Source: Streptomyces hyaluromycini (GTDB taxonomy: Bacteria; Actinomycetota; Actinomycetes; Streptomycetales; Streptomycetaceae). From it: a stretch of DNA of 64,000 nucleotides. The notes under the pieces were generated by a model. The model ran no database searches. It saw only the letters and a program-made list of their open reading frames with translations, and was not told where the DNA came from. The stretch spans positions 124,001-188,000 of the forward strand of contig NZ_BCFL01000021.1 in NCBI RefSeq assembly GCF_002217755.1, written 5' to 3'. The position numbers and the translations under genes are program-made. Below are positions 17,802 to 29,561 of this stretch, piece by piece (the first letter of the stretch is position 1; each line of letters starts with the position of its first letter).

Positions 17802-18503
17802 ATGAGTACACCGGGCCGGGGCCTGCACGGCCGAGTACTGGACACCCTCGGCCCCGCCATCACCGCGGGCGAGTACCCGCCGGGAAGCGTCCTGCGCACG
17901 GACGAGCTGGCCCAGCACTTCCAGGTGTCACGCTCCGTGATGCGTGAGGCGGTCCGGGTCCTCGAATCCATGCACCTGGTCGAGTCCCGCCGCCGGGTGG
18001 GCGTCACCGTCCGCCCCAAGGCCGCGTGGAACGTCTACGACCCGCAGGTCATCCGCTGGCGCCTGGCCGGCGCCGACCGCCCGCACCAGCTGCGCTCGCT
18101 CACCGTGCTGCGCTCGGCGATCGAGCCGGTGGCGGCCGGTCTGGCGGCGCGGCACGCCACGGCCGCCCAGTGCGCCGAGCTCACCGAGTGCGCGCTCGGC
18201 ATGGTGGCCCATTCGCGCGGCCACGAGCTGGAGAAGTACCTGGTCCACGACGTGGCCTTCCACCGGGTGATCCTGGCGGCGTCGGGCAACGAGATGTTCG
18301 CCCGGCTCGGCGACGTCGTGGCCGAGGTCCTCACGGGCCGTACCCACCACGAGGTGATGTTCGAGGACCCCGACCCGGCCGCGGTCACCCTCCACGTCCA
18401 GGTCGCGGAGGCGGTACGGGAGGGCGACGCGCCCCGCGCGGAACGGCTGACCCGCGAGATCACCATGGGCGCCCTCCAGGAACTGGACGTCCTGGCGCCC
18501 TAG
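17802..18503 (+). CDS. gntR: FadR-subfamily GntR regulator of gluconate genes
   Basis: A 233-residue regulator: N-terminal winged helix (R-T-D-E-L-A-Q-H-F-Q-V-S-R-S-V-M-R-E-A-V-R-V-L) and an all-helical FCD domain with metal-binding-type D...H...H residues (V-H-D-V-A-F-H-R and H-V-Q-V). It is divergent from gntK-gntP and almost certainly represses it, with gluconate or a phosphorylated derivative as inducer. The stop shares a CTAG with the convergent YchJ-like gene. Confidence 0.88.
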   Translation: MSTPGRGLHGRVLDTLGPAITAGEYPPGSVLRTDELAQHFQVSRSVMREAVRVLESMHLVESRRRVGVTVRPKAAWNVYDPQVIRWRLAGADRPHQLRSLTVLRSAIEPVAAGLAARHATAAQCAELTECALGMVAHSRGHELEKYLVHDVAFHRVILAASGNEMFARLGDVVAEVLTGRTHHEVMFEDPDPAAVTLHVQVAEAVREGDAPRAERLTREITMGALQELDVLAP

Positions 18504-18901
18504 TCCAGGAACTCCCCGTCCAGATACACCCAGGCTCCCCCGACCCGCTCGAACCGGCTGCGCTCGTGCAGCGAGCCGCCCCTGAAGGACGCCCGGAAGG
18601 TCACCGTGCCGGTGGTGTGGAAGGCCGAGCCGTCGGTCGTCGCCAGGATCTCCAGGCCGGTCCAGCGCATCCCGGGGTCGAAGTCGACCCGGGCCGGGCG
18701 GGTCCGGGGATGCCAGGTGCGCAGCAGGTACGGCTCGTCCCGTCTGACGAAGGCGCTGTAGCGCGAACGCATCAGCGTCTCGGCCGTGGGCGCGGCCGCC
18801 TCGCCCCGGTGGAGCCGGCCGCAGCACTGCTCGTACGTCTCCGCGAGACCGCACGGGCAGGCGGCGGCAGGCTGCTGCCGGGAGGAGCGCTTCGGTGTCA
18901 C
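18500..18901 (-). CDS. YchJ/UPF0225 family protein with SEC-C-like cysteine motif
   Basis: A 133-residue protein: an N-terminal C-P-C-G...Y-E-Q-C-C-G-R-L-H zinc-binding motif followed by an NTF2-like domain (S-R-Y-S-A-F-V...T-W-H-P). GTG 18901 is preceded by a G-rich sequence. It begins 11 bp after the M1 peptidase stop, so it is likely the third gene of the synthetase/peptidase operon, although its role there is unclear. Confidence 0.85.
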   Translation of the reverse strand: MTPKRSSRQQPAAACPCGLAETYEQCCGRLHRGEAAAPTAETLMRSRYSAFVRRDEPYLLRTWHPRTRPARVDFDPGMRWTGLEILATTDGSAFHTTGTVTFRASFRGGSLHERSRFERVGGAWVYLDGEFLD

Positions 18902-18912
18902 CGGCCCGCCCC

Positions 18913-20376
18913 CTACGCCGACTCGGCGTTGGTGGGCGGCTGGGCCGGGCGCGCCGGGACGGCCAGGGTGGGCAGCACGGGCAGCGCCGTCCGGTGCACC
19001 CACGCGTCGAACAGGCCGTCCAGCGGCTCGTCCGCGAAGCGGTTGACGTGGGCCGTGAACATCGCCGTCGTCACGGAGCCGCCCCGGTGCAGCCCCGCCC
19101 ACGCGCGCAGCATGTGGAAGAACCGCTCGTCGCCGAGCGCGCAGCGGATCGCGTGGATCGTGACGCCGCCCCGCTCGTAGAGGCGGTCGTCGAACATCGC
19201 CTTCTTGCCCGGGGCGGCGATCCGGATGTCCTTGGGCAGCCCGGAGAGCAACCGGTGGGCGAGGGCGGCGAGTTGCTGGGCGCTACGGCCGCCGGAGCGC
19301 TCCGACCACAGCCACTCCGCGTACTTGGCGAGCCCCTCGTTCAGCCAGATGTGCCGCCAGTCGGCGATGGACACGCTGTTGCCGAACCACTGGTGCGCCA
19401 GTTCGTGCGCCACCAGGCGCTCCGAACCCCGGGCCCCGTCCACGTGGTTGACGCCGAACAGCGACAACCCCTGGGCCTCGACGGGGACGTCGAACTCCTC
19501 GTCGGCGACGACCACGGCGTACTCGTCGAACGGGTACGGCCCGAACAGCCGCTGGAACAGGTCCATCATCGCGGGCTGCCGCGCGAAGTCCCTGGAGAAC
19601 TCCGGGAGCAGCTGCGCCGGTATGTGCCCGTGCATCGGCACTCCGCCGAAGCCGGGGTCGCCGAGCAGCACCGTCTGGAACTTGCCGATCGCGAGGCTCA
19701 CCAGGTAGCTCGACGTCGGTGCCGCCTGCTCGTACACCCAGGTCGTCGTGGACGCCTTCGTGGTACGGGTGAGCAGCCGGCCGCCGGCCACCACCGAGTA
19801 CGCCGACGGGCAGGTGATCGAGAGCAGGTAGGACGCCTTGTCGGCCGGCCGGTCGTTGCACGGGAACCAGGAGGGCGCACCGGTCGGCTGGCTGGCCACC
19901 AGGGCGCCGTCCGTCAGCTCCTCCCAGCCGATCCCGCCCCAGGGGCTGTTCACCGGCTTGGGGTTGCCCGACCAGTGGATCTCCACGGTGAAGGCGGCCC
20001 CGGCGCGCAGCGGCTTCGCGGGCTTGATCCGCAGCCTGCCGCCGCGATGCGTCCAGTGCGGCTGGCGGCCGTCCACCCGGATCCGGCCGATCTTGAAGTC
20101 GGCCAGGTTCAGCTGGAACTCGGGCAGTGCGGCACGGCCCGCGATCGCGTTGATCCGGGCCATGCCGGCCAGGCGGTTGGGGCCCGGCCGGTAGTCCAGC
20201 GTGAGCTCATAGCGATGCACCCGGTACCGGGAATCGCCGTTGTCCGGGAAGTACGGGTCCGGACCCGCTGACTGCTGCACTGCCACTTCCGCGTTCGCTC
20301 CCTGCGCTGTGCTCGAACCGTCTCTCGGTGCACCGATGCCCGCGGCCACCGAGCGGCCCGCGCTCAGGGACGCCAT
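18913..20376 (-). CDS. M1 family metallopeptidase, coupled to the Pls-like synthetase
   Basis: A 487-residue gluzincin. The zinc site H-E-L-A-H-Q-W is at residues 324-330 and the third ligand Glu347 is in N-E-G-L-A-K-Y. The usual exopeptidase motif G-x-M-E-N is replaced by V-P-V-E-A-Q near 297-302, retaining only the Glu, so the preference for free N-termini may be altered. There is no obvious signal peptide. Its ATG overlaps the end of the synthetase gene by 13 bp, which implies translational coupling. From memory, epsilon-polylysine producers encode membrane Zn-aminopeptidases that degrade the polymer; a self-protection or trimming role here is inferred. Confidence 0.85.
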   Translation of the reverse strand: MASLSAGRSVAAGIGAPRDGSSTAQGANAEVAVQQSAGPDPYFPDNGDSRYRVHRYELTLDYRPGPNRLAGMARINAIAGRAALPEFQLNLADFKIGRIRVDGRQPHWTHRGGRLRIKPAKPLRAGAAFTVEIHWSGNPKPVNSPWGGIGWEELTDGALVASQPTGAPSWFPCNDRPADKASYLLSITCPSAYSVVAGGRLLTRTTKASTTTWVYEQAAPTSSYLVSLAIGKFQTVLLGDPGFGGVPMHGHIPAQLLPEFSRDFARQPAMMDLFQRLFGPYPFDEYAVVVADEEFDVPVEAQGLSLFGVNHVDGARGSERLVAHELAHQWFGNSVSIADWRHIWLNEGLAKYAEWLWSERSGGRSAQQLAALAHRLLSGLPKDIRIAAPGKKAMFDDRLYERGGVTIHAIRCALGDERFFHMLRAWAGLHRGGSVTTAMFTAHVNRFADEPLDGLFDAWVHRTALPVLPTLAVPARPAQPPTNAESA

Positions 20377-23300
20377 GCCTCGATCGGATTGCCGAGCCAG
20401 CGGGTGTCGTCGGGAACCGACTCCGCCGCCATGACGAGCGACGCGGGACCCAGGGTCGTACGGGCCCCGATCGTGCTGCCGGGCAGCACGATCCCGCCAG
20501 GACCCAGTGTGGCGCCCTCACGGAGAACCACAGTATCCGTCCGCAAGATCCGGTCGTGGAAGAGGTGAGTTTGCAGCACACAGCCGCGGTTCACGGTGGC
20601 CGCGTCCTCCAGGGTCACCAGATCGGTCTCCGGAAGCCAGTAGCTCTCCACCCAGACGCCCTTGCCGATGCGCGCGCCGAGGCCGCGCAGCCAGGCCGTC
20701 ATCACCGGCGTACCCGGCACCGAGCCGGCCAGCCACGGCACCGCCAGCACCTCGACGAAAGTGTCCGCCAGTTCGTTGCGCCACACGAACGAGCTCCACA
20801 GCGGGTGCTCCCCGCTGCGGTGCCGTCCGACCAGCAGCCACTTGGCCAGCACGGACACCAGGCCCGCGACCGCACCGGCACCGAGCAGCACCAGGCCGGA
20901 CAGCAGCGGCGCCCAGGCCCCCAGCGCGCACAGCGCGGCCACGGTCAGCCCGGCCAGCGCCACCGAGCACAGCACCGGCACGATCCGGCACGTCTCCACC
21001 AGGGCCCGCGCCCACAGCATCCGCGCCGGCGGCTCGTACGTCCGGCTCTGGTCGCCGTCGGCCGCGCTGCGCGGCAGCTTCACCGGCGGCAGCCCCAGGT
21101 ACGACGTGCCCTTCTTGGCCTTCTTCGGCGTCGCCGACAGCACACCCACCAGACCGCCGTCCGGCACACTGCGGCCCGGCGCGGTCATCCCGGAGTTCCC
21201 GAGGAACGCCCGCCGCCCGATCTCCGCCCGCCCGATCCGCACATAGCCGCCGCCGAGCTCGTACGGCGCGGTCAGCGTGTCGTCGGCCAGGAACGCGCCT
21301 TCGCCGACGGTCGTCAGGCTCGGCAGCGCGAGCACGGTCGACACCTCGGCGCCCTTGCCGATCCGCATCCCGAGCAGCCGCAGCCACACCGGCGTGACCA
21401 GGCCCGCGTACAGCGGGAACAGGGTCTCGCGGGAGCGGTCCATCAGCTGGGAGACCGTCCAGGCCTGCCAGCCGATCCTGCTGTGCGTCGGGTGCGTACC
21501 GACCCGCAGGCCCAGGCTCAGCAGCCGTACGGCGACCAGGATCAGCAGGGCGTACGCGAGACCGAACGCCAGCGTCGCCGGGACCAGCGCGACCGCAGCG
21601 CCCCGCAGGGCCTCGGCCAGGCCGTCCCCGGGGGCCACGAAACGCCCGGCGACCAGCAGCGCGGCTCCGCCCGCCAGCACCGGCAGCGCACTGAGCCCGA
21701 CGCCCGTCAGGCCGTACATCACCCGCCAGTACGTGCCGCGCTGCGGCCGGTGCTTGGGCCAGTTCCGCTTGGCCTTGCCGAGCTTGACCGCCGGGGCGCC
21801 GGCCCAGCGCTGGCCGGTCGGGATCTGCCCGGTGACCGCGGAGCCGGGGGCCACCTCGGCGCGCTTGCCGACGCGGGCGCCCGGGAAGAGCATGCTGCGC
21901 GTCCCGACGACCGCGTGGGCGCCGATCCGCACCGGGCCGATCACCAGCCGGTCCCCGTCCAGCCAGGAGCCGGACAGGTCCACCTCGGACTCCACGGCCG
22001 CGCCCCGCCCGATCCTGAGCAGGCCGGTGACCGGCGGCAGCGAGTGCAGGTCCACCTCGGGACCGATCTTGGCGCCGAGCGCCCGCGCGTACCGCTCCAG
22101 CCAGGAGCCGGTCAGCGTGGTCGCCCCGGTGAACTCCGCCAGCCGCTCCGCCGCCCACAGCCGCAGGTGTACGGAGCAGCCGCGCGCGTACCTGCCGGGC
22201 TTCACGCCCCGCAGCAGCAGCCGGGCGCCACCGGCCGCGACCGCGATCCGGCCGGGCGGGGTGAACAGGACCAGGGCCCCGAGGCCGACCAGCCACCAGG
22301 GTGCGGTGGGCAGCCAGCCGTAGCCGCCCAGCACATTGCCGAGGGCGGCCAGGACCACCGTCCAGCGCAGCCCGAGGAGCGTGAACAGGGGCAGCAGGAG
22401 CAGCAGCTGCACCAGCTGGGCGCTGCGCGGCACGGGCGCGATCGTGCGCTCGGCGCCGTCGTCCTGCGCGGACTTCTCCAGGTGGCGGGCCAGCTTGCGC
22501 AGCACCGGCTGCTGGTAGATGTCGAGGACGGCCGCGCTGGGGTAGCGGGTGCGCAGCCGGGTGGTGAGCTGGGCGGCGGACAGGCTGCCGCCGCCGATCG
22601 CGAAGAAGTCGTCGGAGGCGCTGCCCACCGGGATGCCGAGGACCTCGGTCCACTGCTCGGCGAGCCAGGCCTCGGTGCCGTACAGCTGCTCGGCCGGGCC
22701 GCCGGTCTCCAGGTCCTCCAGGGGCCAGGGCAGGGCGTTGCGGTCGACCTTGCCGGAGGTGCGGGTGGGCAGCTCGGCGACCGGCGCCAGCAGCGGGACG
22801 AGGGCCGCGGGCAGCTCGGTGCGCAGCTTCTCGACGGCCGCCGCGTGGTCCCAGCCGTCCTGGGTGACGACATAGCCGACGAGGAGCTGGTTGCCGCTGC
22901 GGGCCGTGCGTACGGCCGCCGCGGCGCCCGCGACGCCCGGGAGCGCCTGGAGGGCCGCGTCGACCTCGCCCAGCTCGATACGGCGCCCGCCGAGCTTGAT
23001 CTGCTCGTCGGCACGCCCGAGGAAGACCAGCCCCGCACGGTCGGCGCGCACCAGGTCACCGCTGCGGTACGCCCGCTCCCAGCCCAGCGACTCCAGCGGC
23101 GCGTACTTCTCCGCGTCCTTCTCGGCGTCCAGGTACCGGGCGAGGCCGACCCCGCCGATCACCAGCTGGCCGCTCCCGCCCATGGCCACGGGCACGCCGG
23201 CGTCGTCCACGACGGCCAGCTCCCAGCCGTTCAGCGGCAGCCCGATCCTGATCGGCTCCTCGCCGGTCATCAGGGCCGCACAGGCGACGACGGTGGCCTC

Positions 23301-24230
23301 GGTGGGCCCGTAGGTGTTCCAGACCTCGCGGCCCTCGGTCACCAGGCGCTGCGCCAGCTCGGGCGGGCAGGCCTCGCCGCCGAAGATGAGGAGGCGGACG
23401 TCGTTGAGGGTCTCGGGCTCCCAGAGGGCGGCCAGGGTCGGCACGGTCGAGACGACGGTGATCTCCTGGTCGACCAGCCAGGGGCCGAGGTCGGCGCCGC
23501 TGCGCACCTGGGAGCGCGGCACCGGCACCAGACAGGCGCCGTAGCGCCAGGCCAGCCACATCTCCTCGCAGGAAGCGTCGAAGGCCACGGAGAGGCCCGC
23601 CATGACCCGGTCGCCGGGCCCGATCGGCTCCTCGGCCAGGAACAGCGCGGCCTCGGCGTCCACGAAGGCGGCGGCGCTGCGGTGGGTGACGGCGACGCCC
23701 TTGGGCTTGCCGGTGGACCCGGAGGTGAAGATGATCCAGGCGTCGTTTTCGGCGCCGGGGCGGCCGGAGGGCCTTTCGGACTCGTGGCGGACGTCGATGT
23801 CCAGGCCCTCGCCGAGGACGGCTGCCACCTCCGCCTCGCCGAACACCAGCGCGGCCCGCTCGTCCGGGTCCTCGGCGTCGACCGGGACGTAGGCGGCGCC
23901 GGCCGCGAGCACGCCGAGAACGGCGACATACAGGTCGTTGGTTCCGGACGGCACCCGGACGCCCACACGGTCGCCGAGCCCGATGCCGGCCTCGGCGAGC
24001 CGCCGCCGCAGCCGCGCCACCTCTATGGCGAGCCCGCGGTAGGTGAGCTGGATGGTGCCGTCGTCCAGTGCGGGCTCGTCCGGGTGGGCCCGCACCGTTG
24101 CTTCGAACACGTCCACCAGGGTGCGCGGCGAGGCCGCCGCCCCGGCCGAGAAACGTGCGGTGTCCCCGAACTCCTCGCGGATCTCTTCGTCGAGCAGGCC
24201 GAGAGCGCTGCTCTCGTCAATCGCTGCCAT
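20364..24230 (-). CDS. Pls/PosA-type single-module NRPS (polyamino-acid synthetase-like)
   Basis: A 1288-residue protein with the architecture of epsilon-poly-L-lysine synthetase. It has an adenylation domain (residues ~45-505; core motif F-T-S-G-S-T-G-K-P-K-G at 168-178, catalytic Lys494) and a carrier domain with phosphopantetheine Ser549 in G-G-G-S-L. Three pairs of membrane segments (~605-665, ~840-905, ~1084-1130) enclose three left-handed-helix acetyltransferase-like domains used for condensation. There is no thioesterase. By hand alignment to GrsA the pocket residues are Asp218, Ala219, Glu222, Ser261, Ile282, Gly284, Thr306, Val314, Val315, Lys494. The acidic Glu222 suits a basic amino acid such as lysine. 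GAGGA precedes ATG 24230. The product is unknown and could be a short or long cationic peptide. Confidence 0.9.
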   Translation of the reverse strand: MAAIDESSALGLLDEEIREEFGDTARFSAGAAASPRTLVDVFEATVRAHPDEPALDDGTIQLTYRGLAIEVARLRRRLAEAGIGLGDRVGVRVPSGTNDLYVAVLGVLAAGAAYVPVDAEDPDERAALVFGEAEVAAVLGEGLDIDVRHESERPSGRPGAENDAWIIFTSGSTGKPKGVAVTHRSAAAFVDAEAALFLAEEPIGPGDRVMAGLSVAFDASCEEMWLAWRYGACLVPVPRSQVRSGADLGPWLVDQEITVVSTVPTLAALWEPETLNDVRLLIFGGEACPPELAQRLVTEGREVWNTYGPTEATVVACAALMTGEEPIRIGLPLNGWELAVVDDAGVPVAMGGSGQLVIGGVGLARYLDAEKDAEKYAPLESLGWERAYRSGDLVRADRAGLVFLGRADEQIKLGGRRIELGEVDAALQALPGVAGAAAAVRTARSGNQLLVGYVVTQDGWDHAAAVEKLRTELPAALVPLLAPVAELPTRTSGKVDRNALPWPLEDLETGGPAEQLYGTEAWLAEQWTEVLGIPVGSASDDFFAIGGGSLSAAQLTTRLRTRYPSAAVLDIYQQPVLRKLARHLEKSAQDDGAERTIAPVPRSAQLVQLLLLLPLFTLLGLRWTVVLAALGNVLGGYGWLPTAPWWLVGLGALVLFTPPGRIAVAAGGARLLLRGVKPGRYARGCSVHLRLWAAERLAEFTGATTLTGSWLERYARALGAKIGPEVDLHSLPPVTGLLRIGRGAAVESEVDLSGSWLDGDRLVIGPVRIGAHAVVGTRSMLFPGARVGKRAEVAPGSAVTGQIPTGQRWAGAPAVKLGKAKRNWPKHRPQRGTYWRVMYGLTGVGLSALPVLAGGAALLVAGRFVAPGDGLAEALRGAAVALVPATLAFGLAYALLILVAVRLLSLGLRVGTHPTHSRIGWQAWTVSQLMDRSRETLFPLYAGLVTPVWLRLLGMRIGKGAEVSTVLALPSLTTVGEGAFLADDTLTAPYELGGGYVRIGRAEIGRRAFLGNSGMTAPGRSVPDGGLVGVLSATPKKAKKGTSYLGLPPVKLPRSAADGDQSRTYEPPARMLWARALVETCRIVPVLCSVALAGLTVAALCALGAWAPLLSGLVLLGAGAVAGLVSVLAKWLLVGRHRSGEHPLWSSFVWRNELADTFVEVLAVPWLAGSVPGTPVMTAWLRGLGARIGKGVWVESYWLPETDLVTLEDAATVNRGCVLQTHLFHDRILRTDTVVLREGATLGPGGIVLPGSTIGARTTLGPASLVMAAESVPDDTRWLGNPIEAWRP

Positions 24231-24590
24231 CCGGTCCTCGCGTCTCGTTCCCGGAACCTCCGGGATGCCGGCGGGCCCGCAGGTCTGCCTGGGGTTGTCC
24301 GGCTCCGGCTAGGTAACAAGCCGGAAATATTAGTACGACGCTAGGCTCCCGTTCATCTCGCGGCCACCTGGAGACAGCCGTTCGGAGTAGTCCCTTGAAT
24401 CTTAAGCAACTCCTGACCTGGCATTCTCCGCGCACGACGAGAGATGGGACACACAGCGTGAGGCGGGCCAACTCCGTGTGTCCGGCGGCCCGTACGACAA
24501 CGGCCGGCCCTGCGGCGAAGAGGGGGGAGAGATCGCCGCGGAACCGGCCGTCGCCGTGGGGGCGGAGGAAACGTCACAGGGCGCCGGACG
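24231..24590. other. Intergenic region upstream of the Pls-like gene
   Basis: No convincing gene is seen in this 360-bp stretch. An A/T-rich patch at about 24312-24345 (around GGAAATATTAGTACGACGCT) is the likeliest promoter zone for the synthetase. A short plus-strand frame from GTG 24459 (48 codons, Arg-rich) has no recognisable features and is not called. Confidence 0.4.
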
Positions 24591-25034
24591 TCACGCGGCG
24601 CTGACCTCGGCCCAGATGGACTTGCCCCAGGGCAGATTGCCCACACCCCAGCGGCCCGAGCAGAGCGCGTCGAGGATCAGCAGACCGCGACCCCGGTCCC
24701 GTTCGACCGAGATGGGGCGCAGGCGGGGATGGCGGCCCAGCGGGTCGTGCACCTCGACCCGGGTCCGGGAGCCGTCGGTGTCGATGACGAGACGGACCGG
24801 GTCGTCCGGGTCGGTCTCGTAGCGCAGGGAGTTGGTGACCAGCTCGCAGGTGACCAGGGCGACCGCGTCGATGTGGTCGCGGGAGGCGTCAGGGGTGTGG
24901 TGGGCGATGAAGTCGCTCACGAACAGCCGGGCAGCCTTGGCCGACTGAGGCTCGCTGGCCAGTAACAGGACCGGCGGTGGGGCGACTTGCAGGGAGCGGG
25001 GTTCGGTCGTGGTGCTCCGCTGGCGTTCGATCAT
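24591..25034 (-). CDS. Anti-sigma-factor-like ATP-binding protein (RsbW/AbaA-like HATPase_c)
   Basis: A 147-residue protein with a GHKL ATPase domain: N-box C-E-L-V-T-N-S-L-R-Y near residue 65 and G-box D-R-G-R-G-L-L-I-L near 113. Streptomyces encode dozens of such RsbW-like proteins, many next to XRE/DUF397 pairs. ATG 25034 is chosen because GAGGGG lies 6 nt upstream. It is divergent from the XRE gene and shares its promoter region, so a common developmental or stress role is inferred. No sigma factor gene is nearby. Confidence 0.83.
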   Translation of the reverse strand: MIERQRSTTTEPRSLQVAPPPVLLLASEPQSAKAARLFVSDFIAHHTPDASRDHIDAVALVTCELVTNSLRYETDPDDPVRLVIDTDGSRTRVEVHDPLGRHPRLRPISVERDRGRGLLILDALCSGRWGVGNLPWGKSIWAEVSAA

Positions 25035-25204: not shown

Positions 25205-25276
25205 GTCAGTCGGTGGCGAGGGTTGGTGCGGCACGGGCAGACTGTCGGGCAGTTCACCGGACAGAAGGGGGAATCC

Positions 25277-26143
25277 GTGAGCACGCCCACGGTGCGCCGG
25301 CGACGGCTCGGTGCGAAGTTGCGCGAGCTGCGTGGCGAACTCACCCTCGACGAGGTCGCCGAGCACTCCGAAGGCGCGTTCGTCTCCTCCAAGCTGTCCC
25401 GGATGGAGACCGGCAAGACCGCCCCCAAGGCAGCGGACATCCAGGCGCTGCTCCATCTGTACGGCGACCTCGGCCGCGACGTCAGCGACGAGCTGCGCGC
25501 GGCCCTGATCACGCTCACCAAGGAGGGCGGCCGGCGCGGCTGGTGGCACTCGTACCGGGGTGTCCTCACCCCGGTGTACGAGGACCTGATCAGCCTGGAG
25601 GCGGAGGCCGAGACGGTCTCCACCTGGCAGCTGGGCATGGTCCCCGGACTGCTCCAGACCGCCGAGTACGCCCGCGAGATCATCCGGGCGACCGCCATGT
25701 CCGAGGCGGTCGAGGCACGGGTCGACGCGCTCGTCGAGGTACGGCTGGCACGCCAGGCCGTCCTCACCCGGGACAGCGACCCGCTGGCGCTCTGGGCGAT
25801 CATCTCCGAACAGGCCCTGCGCTCCACCACCGAGGATCCCGCCCTGATGTACGAGCAGTTGGGGCGCCTGCTTACGATGGGGCGGCGCCCGAACATCAAC
25901 ATCCAGGTGTTGCGGTCGGACGCCCCCCTGCACGCCGGGCTCACCGGCACCTTCAGCATCCTGGGCTTCGGTCCGCACACCGATCTGGACGTCGTCCACC
26001 AGGAAGGGCTGACCTCCGCCCTGTACATCGAGGAACGTGATCGGGTCTCCACGCACCGGGCCGCGTGGCAACGCCTCACGTCTGCCGCCGAGTCCGTCGA
26101 GGCGTCGGTGGAACTGATCACCCAGATAAGGAAGAACGAATAA
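25277..26143 (+). CDS. XRE/WhiJ-like helix-turn-helix regulator with DUF5753
   Basis: A 288-residue protein with an N-terminal XRE helix-turn-helix (L-G-A-K-L-R-E-L-R...T-L-D-E-V-A-E-H-S...S-K-L-S-R-M-E-T-G) and a C-terminal DUF5753 domain (W-Q-L-G-M-V-P-G-L-L-Q-T-A-E-Y-A-R near residue 117). This is the WhiJ family, abundant in Streptomyces and tied to development and antibiotic production. GTG 25277 follows AAGGGGGAA. The DUF397 gene follows after 3 bp, forming the standard pair in which the small protein is thought to antagonise the DNA-binding partner. Confidence 0.9.
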   Translation: MSTPTVRRRRLGAKLRELRGELTLDEVAEHSEGAFVSSKLSRMETGKTAPKAADIQALLHLYGDLGRDVSDELRAALITLTKEGGRRGWWHSYRGVLTPVYEDLISLEAEAETVSTWQLGMVPGLLQTAEYAREIIRATAMSEAVEARVDALVEVRLARQAVLTRDSDPLALWAIISEQALRSTTEDPALMYEQLGRLLTMGRRPNINIQVLRSDAPLHAGLTGTFSILGFGPHTDLDVVHQEGLTSALYIEERDRVSTHRAAWQRLTSAAESVEASVELITQIRKNE

Positions 26144-28103: not shown

Positions 28104-28229
28104 CGGGCGGCTGTACGAGGCCGAATGAGAAGAGTGAATGCGACGATAAGCTCGTAGCTCCATTACTCCCTCCTCGTTACTCCAGATGTGATCCGCTACT
28201 GCGAATCGCATTGCCAACAAGGAGGAATA

Positions 28230-28463
28230 ATGCTCAAGAAGGTCGTCGCTGCTGCGGCTGCCACTGGTGGTCTGGTTCTCGCGGGTGCGGGCCTGGCCGT
28301 CGCCGACTCGGGTGCCCAGGGCGCTGCCATGCATTCCCCGGGTGTCGTCTCCGGCAACGTGATCCAGGTTCCCGTGCACGTCCCGGTGAACGTCTGCGGC
28401 AACACGATCTCCGTGATCGGGCTGCTGAACCCCGCCTTCGGCAACACCTGCATCAACAAGTGA
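28230..28463 (+). CDS. chpH: Short chaplin (ChpH-like)
   Basis: A 77-residue secreted protein: signal peptide 1-26 (A-G-L-A-V-A-D cleavage region) and one chaplin domain with Cys56 and Cys74, H-S-P-G-V-V-S-G-N and the amyloid core V-C-G-N-T-I-S-V-I-G. Short chaplins assemble into amphipathic amyloid films on aerial hyphae and spores. The ribosome-binding site AAGGAGGAA is excellent, consistent with high expression. Its identity as ChpH rests on closeness to the remembered S. coelicolor sequence and on adjacency to chpC. A strong terminator follows at 28491. Confidence 0.93.
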   Translation: MLKKVVAAAAATGGLVLAGAGLAVADSGAQGAAMHSPGVVSGNVIQVPVHVPVNVCGNTISVIGLLNPAFGNTCINK

Positions 28464-28490
28464 CGCCGACTCCCTGAGGGGCGTCTTCCC

Positions 28491-28536
28491 GTCGGCCCCG
28501 GAGCGCGCGCCATGCGCTCCGGGGCCGACCGGTTTT
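28491..28536 (+). terminator. Intrinsic terminator of chpH
   Basis: A 16-bp perfect stem (GTCGGCCCCGGAGCGC and its complement) with a 7-nt loop, followed by CGGTTTTTCC. It separates the highly expressed chpH from chpC. Confidence 0.88.
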
Positions 28537-28607
28537 TCCGCGGGCTTTTTCCGAACGAATGTCCGTGCGGAATGCAAGGTCAGGATCCGAGGCAGGGGAA
28601 TTCAGAA

Positions 28608-29561
28608 ATGCGACAGGGTACCCGTAAGGGCCTTATGACAGTGGCCGCGGCGACCGGCGTGATCGCCGCGGCAAGCGGATACGCCCACGCCGACTCGGGG
28701 GCGGTCGGCTCCGCCGCCGACTCACCCGGCGTGCTCTCCGGCAACACGGTGCAGGCGCCGGTGCACGTGCCGGTGAACGTCTGCGGCAACACCGTGAACG
28801 TCGTCGGCGCCCTGAACCCGTCGATGGGCAACAAGTGCGCCAACCACGGCGGCGGGGGCGGTGCTTCGGCGGGCCACGGCCACAGCGGAGACCACGGTGG
28901 GTACGGCGGTCCCGGCGGCAACGGCGGCAACGGCGGTCACAGCGGCCACGGGGGTTCGCCCGCCGGGGGGCACACCGCAGGTTCGCCCGGTGTCGGCTCG
29001 GGCAACACCGCGCAGGCGCCGGTCGACGTTCCGGTCAATATGTGCGGCAACAGCGTCGACGTCATCGGCGTCGGCAACACCGCCGTGGGCAACGAGTGCG
29101 CCAACGACGGGGGTTCCGGACACATCGGACACCCGGGGCACCCAGGACACCCGGGACACCCAGGGTCTCCCGGCGGTGGTCACCCCACGCAGCCGCCCGG
29201 CCACGGCGGGCACGGCACGCCTCCTGCGCACGGCGGGCACGGCAGCACGCCGCCCGGGAAGCCGGGGAACCCCGGAACGCCGGGCAGGCCGGGGAACCCG
29301 GGGACTCCGGGACACCCGGGCGCTCCGGGCGTGCACCCGGGCATGCCCCCCGCTCACTCCGGGAGCAGGACCGTCCCGACCGGTGCCCGCGGCGCCACCC
29401 TCGTCCACCCGCTGGGCAGCGTCTCCGTGAGCCGGCCCGTCACCGCCGCGCAGCTCGCGCACACCGGCAGTGACCTGCCACTGGGTCTCGCGCTCCCGGC
29501 CGGCGCCGGTGCGCTGCTCGCGGGCGCCGTGCTGTACCGCAGGGCGCGCGCCGCGGCGTAG
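28608..29561 (+). CDS. chpC: Long, sortase-anchored chaplin with collagen-like linker (ChpC-like)
   Basis: A 317-residue protein. In order it has a signal peptide (1-28), chaplin domain 1 (~39-79, Cys59/Cys77), a Gly/His-rich spacer, chaplin domain 2 (~126-166, Cys146/Cys164), a Gly-X-Y collagen-like tract (~171-245, e.g. G-K-P-G-N-P-G-T-P-G), a Ser/Thr-Pro stretch, the sortase signal L-A-H-T-G (283-287), a membrane helix and an Arg-rich tail. The LAxTG motif indicates wall anchoring by a class E sortase. It would tether chaplin fibrils to the wall. AGGGGAA lies about 8 nt before ATG 28608. The collagen-like segment is longer and more regular than I recall for ChpC. Confidence 0.93.
   Translation: MRQGTRKGLMTVAAATGVIAAASGYAHADSGAVGSAADSPGVLSGNTVQAPVHVPVNVCGNTVNVVGALNPSMGNKCANHGGGGGASAGHGHSGDHGGYGGPGGNGGNGGHSGHGGSPAGGHTAGSPGVGSGNTAQAPVDVPVNMCGNSVDVIGVGNTAVGNECANDGGSGHIGHPGHPGHPGHPGSPGGGHPTQPPGHGGHGTPPAHGGHGSTPPGKPGNPGTPGRPGNPGTPGHPGAPGVHPGMPPAHSGSRTVPTGARGATLVHPLGSVSVSRPVTAAQLAHTGSDLPLGLALPAGAGALLAGAVLYRRARAAA

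Follow-up and report, generated by a model that had tools for sequence, protein, structure and literature searches.

A 64,000-nucleotide stretch of the Streptomyces hyaluromycini genome (contig NZ_BCFL01000021.1, positions 124,001 to 188,000; hereafter the window) encodes a predicted epsilon-polylysine synthetase (pls) and, overlapping its end, a two-domain zinc metallopeptidase of the M1 family. Our analysis indicates that the two genes probably form an epsilon-poly-L-lysine synthetase operon belonging to a lineage that is widespread among actinobacteria, and that the M1 depolymerase, translationally coupled to the synthetase, would act in the cytosol; the product, the enzyme activity and the location of the M1 protein are all predicted from sequence. 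Earlier work already covers the gene pair, the product it probably makes and the idea of protection, and the biochemical reading is sound; a new cationic-polymer pathway was rejected as a description of the locus, since the pls-pldII pair is already in print. What is new is that the expected site of the depolymerase differs sharply between whole lineages, for which hydropathy and phylogenetic trees provide the evidence.

Synthetase Architecture and Expected Monomer

The 1,288-residue synthetase matches the Pls/PosA family model TIGR02353 at 835 bits (cut-off 423) over residues 607–1283. Pfam recovers AMP-binding, PP-binding and Hexapep domains, with AMP-binding_C below threshold; at E ≤ 0.001 it detects neither a condensation nor a thioesterase domain; an earlier reading of the stretch made from the letters alone (the original prediction) had likewise called an epsilon-polylysine-synthetase-type architecture without a thioesterase. 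The adenylation (A) domain extends over approximately residues 26–505, the thiolation (T) domain, with Ser549, over 522–584, and the polymerisation domain over 600–1288. The protein thus has the features of the Pls/PosA family: a C-terminal domain above the family cut-off, A and T domains unaccompanied by condensation or thioesterase domains, and, as modelled, three units that each combine a transmembrane helix pair with a beta-helix.

The adenylation pocket, located through the core motifs and by alignment to the crystal structure 7wew rather than to GrsA itself, consists of D218, A219, E222, S261, I282, G284, T306, V314, V315 and K494, which is the code D-A-E-S-I-G-T-V-V-K as it had been written by hand. 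We take these positions to correspond to those of the GrsA numbering. The top solved relative is 7wew, the adenylation domain of an epsilon-poly-L-lysine synthase, with 312 of 475 aligned residues identical; it agrees with the window protein at 10 of 10 pocket positions, which supports the lysine-type assignment. The same ten residues are found in 100 of 102 rows of related proteins, counting 7wew (the remaining two being an unrelated nonribosomal peptide synthetase [NRPS] and one synthetase in which position 2 is Phe), and in 72 of 72 rows of a wider set, 32 of which are new.

In the lysine enzyme, position 2 of the code is occupied by Ala, in PosA (ornithine) by Met and in the enzymes for diaminopropionate (DAP) and diaminobutyrate (DAB) by Phe, and the PosA study saw no activity once the Glu at position 3 had been replaced (PMC10522769; articles identified by PMC number are cited here from portions of their text). 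The window Pls has Ala at position 2 and Glu at position 3. Because its pocket equals that of 7wew and carries these two residues, lysine is the expected monomer, and the protein has the lysine-type pocket of an epsilon-poly-L-lysine synthetase. PosA, the delta-poly-L-ornithine synthetase of Acinetobacter baumannii, shares the order of A domain, T domain and membrane polymerisation domain; it differs in having Met at position 2 and in being encoded by a single-gene operon (PMC10522769), whereas the window Pls has Ala and is coupled to an M1 gene.

The genome of S. hyaluromycini encodes a second TIGR02353 protein (833 bits; L165:7118-16225, G000:C30 ~145117-154224) that comprises a carrier and a membrane polymerisation domain with no A domain. 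It is followed by an NRPS of A-T-thioesterase organization, a TauD dioxygenase, and OCD- and PALP-family genes; the last two, we assume, may supply diaminopropionate. Proteins of similar length and score occur in six of 11 genomes, this one included (L120, L126, and L131–L134); the Pfam check covered the S. hyaluromycini copy.

The Coupled Peptidase

The start codon of the M1 gene (ATG at position 20376) and the stop codon of pls (TGA at 20366–20364) leave 13 bp common to both genes; the open reading frame (ORF) list and the sequence at the joint agree with the synthetase, peptidase frame and overlap first described, and the overlap suggests that translation of the two genes is coupled. For comparison we used 80 loci, the best 80 of at least 591 confirmed relatives, at 61–89% identity. 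The 13-bp spacing recurs in 22 of 81 loci, the window counted. Over these 81 loci the spacing is below zero in 62, between 0 and 60 in 10, and above 60 in nine; these counts let every M1 frame begin at its earliest possible start codon, which overstates the overlaps.

An M1 homologue lies downstream of pls in 80 of 80 loci, from five families, so adjacency by chance is very unlikely and the proposed pairing of synthetase and peptidase holds; among 32 further loci, 27 also have it downstream, encoded on the strand that carries pls. The zinc site HExxH-x18-E is present in 97 of 97 M1 rows examined, 14 of them S. albulus-type. The two-domain fold is shared with the M1 protein of Deinococcus radiodurans (6a8z and 6ifg; 28% identity, E 2.1e-39, TM-score 0.81 by query, rmsd 2.5); the stretch before the zinc site aligns poorly, and no link of the Deinococcus protein to a polymer synthetase came up, no search having been aimed at one.

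It is very improbable that the M1 protein is a house-keeping peptidase merely adjoining pls. Eight matches in the same genome span most of the M1 protein and some pls loci have no M1 gene, as such a reading would allow; against it stand the constant gene order just described and a tree of the catalytic parts, with leaders removed, in which pls-coupled M1s (56 rows, from 45 of 109 leaderless and 11 of 15 leader-bearing proteins) are separated from seven own-genome paralogues by a branch with 100/100 support. (Two of the seven, L170 and L172, have one TAG inside the match.) The leader-bearing pls-coupled M1s form one group in this tree (100/100), which agrees with their side in the Pls tree.

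The pls and pldII genes of S. albulus share 4 bp and belong to one operon (PMC4361855), and PldII is described as translationally coupled, located outside the membrane, and an endo-type aminopeptidase that degrades epsilon-polylysine (PMC9223678). The window resembles this system in domain order, pocket and a coupled downstream peptidase gene, and 14 of 16 S. albulus-type loci have an M1 gene beside pls whose product is 42–48% identical to the window M1. From this position it appears that PldII itself is an M1 enzyme; the window protein shares with PldII the coupling to pls and has the M1 zinc site. The two systems differ in the length of the overlap (13 bp in the window versus 4 bp), in the identity of their Pls proteins (~56%, on opposite sides of a well-supported split) and in the export leader, which the window M1 lacks and S. 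albulus-type M1s have. A Corynebacterium pls in an operon with a peptidase gene gave epsilon-polylysine of 26–35 residues in S. coelicolor, whose strain M145 is reported to have no pls of its own (PMC8117764). The Corynebacterium variabile operon resembles the window in combining a lysine-pocket Pls with a peptidase gene (PMC8117764); its Pls lies outside our trees, so that the comparison covers operon and pocket, not lineage side or leader.

One S. albulus-type pls (L162; G243:C1:8637900-8647000) has no M1 homologue downstream, and the same genome, G243, also has a window-type pls with a leaderless M1 (L167). Two Pls relatives from other families of the class (L230 and L231; 39–42% identity) have the ten-letter lysine pocket and no M1 homologue nearby; at L230 a frame of ~206 residues begins at the pls end.

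Two Lineages of Pls

The S. albulus adenylation domain is matched in 166 of 392 Streptomyces genomes (E ≤ 1e-150), and the window protein in 95 of the 394 genomes of the class, spread over 31 of 137 genera (E ≤ 1e-200); the architecture, which the original prediction had called rare, is thus not rare. Among the Streptomyces matches listed, 23 have 74–93% identity and the rest 65–71%. A third group is possible among the Streptomyces matches of weaker E-value (~1e-152 to 1e-160).

Placed in a Pls phylogeny, as had been proposed, the window protein falls in a group of 83 rows (support 100); the other rows of this 100-row tree are 16 of S. albulus type and a single distant one. A wider, 72-row tree, which combines 24 of those 83 rows with the full set of 16 S. 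albulus-type rows and 32 additional ones and leaves out L166, retains the split with support of 98 and 99, and its window side takes in genomes of 13 other family labels. The window Pls is a member of the more widespread of the two lineages. Across the split the proteins are ~56% identical over their full length, as measured against the loci nearest 7wew. Seven Streptomyces genomes have two matches above the cut-off; the one checked on the tree, G243, has one of each type. Long branches make the position of L166 in the 100-row tree, and of L230, L231, L229 and L228 in the 72-row tree, unsure; L165, an unrelated NRPS, was removed before tree building, and the trees were built without the Pls of C. 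variabile and Kitasatospora aureofaciens.

Expected Site of the Depolymerase

By hydropathy the window M1 has no export leader (14-residue maximum 0.99). The same is true of the M1s on the window side of the split (leader absent in 83 of 83, maxima ≤1.09), whereas all 14 S. albulus-type M1s have one (maxima 1.34–2.34); the N-terminus of each of the latter contains an arginine pair and a hydrophobic stretch (14 of 14), which by eye appears Tat-like and export-like. The wider sample of 32 loci contributed 27 M1s, 26 leaderless and one leader-bearing, and the Pls accompanying that single leader-bearing protein belongs to the S. albulus clade. In total, a leader is present in 15 of 15 S. albulus-type M1s and absent in 109 of 109 window-side M1s. 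On the 72-row tree the leader state needs two changes, since one row inside the leader clade has no M1. As an own-genome control, seven other compact M1 proteins of S. hyaluromycini all have a hydrophobic leader (1.64–2.59); these paralogues were scored over up to 75 residues upstream and pls-coupled M1s over up to 45, and for some of the pls-coupled M1s the scored stretch takes in frame inside pls. Some M1s begin 4–9 residues before the conserved fold (for example L062, L063, L211, and L226). Residues 1–39 of an AlphaFold model of the window M1 are disordered; the other rows were cut at residue 40, so this adds no support.

PldII is placed outside the membrane, a location that needs an export leader, and by hydropathy only, the window M1 lacks one. 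Because it has no secretion leader, the window M1 should stay in the cytosol. The original prediction had overlooked the missing leader, which would change where the enzyme acts. The open literature searched contained nothing to the point on a leader difference between Pls lineages.

The locus could instead be an ordinary pls-pldII operon, with a secreted antimicrobial polymer and an M1 protein that reaches the outside by a route without a classical leader. Homology and gene order are as in S. albulus, and PldII is described as external (PMC9223678), all of which such a reading would accommodate; we consider it unlikely in view of the leader totals on the two sides of the split, the leaders of the seven paralogues, and the M1s that start 4–9 residues before the fold.

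Several points weigh against a coupled cytosolic depolymerase. The leader call is a hydropathy score rather than the output of a trained signal-peptide predictor, M1 start codons are unproven, and a few rows in which the stretch ahead of the anchor is shorter than 14 residues were unscorable and counted as leaderless. Non-classical export of the M1 protein is possible, and since PldII is described as outside the membrane (PMC9223678), its function is here transferred across compartments. An M1 homologue is lacking within ~2.5 kb downstream of pls in five of the 32 wider loci, and M1 is lacking in two of the 16 S. albulus-type loci, so the peptidase is not indispensable. Finally, the Corynebacterium Pls made polymer under an S. 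albulus promoter and none was seen in the native host or in C. glutamicum (PMC8117764); the window gene may therefore be silent.

A Proposed Model of Synthesis and Recycling

In the mechanism that we propose, the A domain would adenylate L-lysine, as its identical pocket suggests, and load it onto the T domain at Ser549. The beta-helix domain, anchored in the membrane, would then transfer the lysyl group by its carbonyl to an amine on a free chain of lysines, with H1222 (see below) as the residue most likely used, and the chain would grow at the cytosolic membrane face. A leaderless M1 would encounter no chains but those that remain in the cell or come back into it, and may cut these to lysine, both guarding the cytosol and recycling the monomer. 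On chemical grounds, each residue of epsilon-polylysine should keep a free alpha-amine beside the scissile carbonyl, so that every epsilon bond would resemble an aminopeptidase substrate; the side-chain linkage would then explain how an M1 aminopeptidase acts along the chain and why PldII is labelled an endo-type aminopeptidase.

Epsilon-polylysine is an industrial preservative, and discussion of how its producers survive has centred on PldII, which is described as external. Should the depolymerase of the more widespread lineage stay in the cytosol, the PldII self-protection model misses those carriers, and the role of the polymer in them becomes directly testable. A bolder and rather doubtful extension is that in most pls-bearing actinobacteria epsilon-polylysine is primarily an intracellular, reversible polymer of lysine, and that its secretion as an antimicrobial, together with an exported depolymerase, is a trait in which the S. 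albulus branch has specialised. The synthetase in the membrane and the depolymerase in the cytosol would then form a make-and-recycle cycle, somewhat like cyanophycin and its hydrolase, which, if true, would help explain why many pls carriers are not known as producers.

The Polymerisation Step and Chain Length

In an AlphaFold model of residues 590–1288 (41 sequences; pLDDT 85, pTM 0.87), long helices and a beta-helix make up each of three units, and hydropathy together with the model places hydrophobic helix blocks at residues ~600–672, 833–913 and 1074–1136, each followed by a beta-helix region. The published model of PosA has three beta-helices in approximate threefold packing (PMC10522769), and as modelled the two proteins appear alike in having a membrane polymerisation domain of three units. 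The closest solved folds to the domain model are hexapeptide acyltransferases, to which VIA-align gave Z values of 14–17 and rmsd of 1.8–4.1, mainly for the first unit.

H1222, in the third unit, is the sole invariant histidine over 37 rows of the family (36 distinct genes, L139 and L166 being the same gene); other invariant residues include E1201 and D983. A third-unit profile pairs H1222 with the histidine of the IYTH motif in the hexapeptide acetyltransferase 8vr6. Such a histidine is the usual catalytic base in the hexapeptide acyltransferase class. H1222 is thus the residue most likely used for chain transfer, which would suggest one active site per pseudo-trimer, on the third unit. The open literature searched held no report to the point of a catalytic histidine in Pls. 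Work on the polymerisation step, which is still unsolved, could start from the one invariant histidine in the third beta-helix.

The original prediction suggested a pathway that protects or limits itself. The idea of self-protection had been postulated earlier for PldII (PMC8117764); limitation of chain length is disfavoured for PldII, since according to a review the inactivation of Pld and PldII left production and the degree of polymerisation unchanged (PMC8506220). The same review attributes the control of chain length to Pls and mentions short chains obtained with a pls of Kitasatospora (PMC8506220). These statements, and the difference between the two Pls lineages at ~44% of positions, would suit a window-lineage Pls that makes another product (for instance an oligolysine of few residues, or a polymer built from a different diamino acid) which the M1 protein trims or matures. 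This seems improbable, because the pocket is that of the lysine enzyme and loss of Pld and PldII did not alter chain length in S. albulus (PMC8506220). Furthermore, W639 aligns with W646, whose mutation shortens chains, and is Trp in 81 of 83 lineage members; L871, at the second chain-length position (L883), varies and is Leu in 53 of 83 (W646 and L883 are numbered from L150, taken as equal to the S. albulus numbering).

Genomic Context

The coordinates of pls, its coupled M1 gene and their neighbours are given in Table 1.

Table 1. Features of the pls locus in the window
Feature	Position	Strand	Basis or remark
pls, Pls/PosA-family epsilon-polylysine synthetase (predicted)	20364..24230	-	1288 aa; ORF list, TIGR02353, Pfam, 7wew
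pls-coupled two-domain M1 zinc metallopeptidase, PldII homologue	18913..20376	-	487 aa, HELAH-x18-E
Overlap of pls stop and M1 start, 13 bp	20364..20376	-	Sequence at joint
Adenylation pocket span, D218 to K494	22749..23579	-	Code same as 7wew
Polymerisation domain, residues 590-1288	20367..22463	-	Three TM-pair + left-handed beta-helix units
YchJ-family gene	18500..18901	-	Syntenic neighbour
GntR/FCD regulator, convergent with YchJ	17802..18503	+	Pfam

The YchJ-like gene reported 11 bp past the M1 stop was recovered there: it most likely starts at the GTG at 18901 and ends at 18500, and the 200-residue frame in the ORF list is the longest frame rather than the gene. A close relative of YchJ is found in 26 of the 80 loci, 3–3836 bp past the M1 gene, and in 24 of these 26 it is accompanied by the GntR gene (one more locus has GntR without YchJ); in 48 other loci none was found near pls-M1, within ~1–2.3 kb after the M1 gene. 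YchJ is the sole PF17775 match in its own genome. Since its presence beside pls-M1 is not conserved and it travels with a convergent GntR gene, a role as a tailoring or immunity factor was rejected; YchJ looks like a neighbour in one Streptomyces group, a bystander outside the pls module.

The divergent helix-turn-helix regulator at 25223–26143 was rejected as a regulator of pls: the 80 loci contain no relative at E ≤ 1e-5, with the limit that some hold less than 6 kb upstream. A scan of 24100–24700 for sigma-70-type promoters found none, and no second copy of the stretch upstream of pls was found in the S. hyaluromycini genome. ARAGORN placed a tRNA-Arg (cct) at 21906–22001 (- strand), within the pls reading frame; this is probably a false call in GC-rich coding DNA. 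At 28188–29561 (+ strand) the window has two adjoining ORFs with repeated motifs around VPVNVCGN, which we take to resemble chaplin-type surface proteins.

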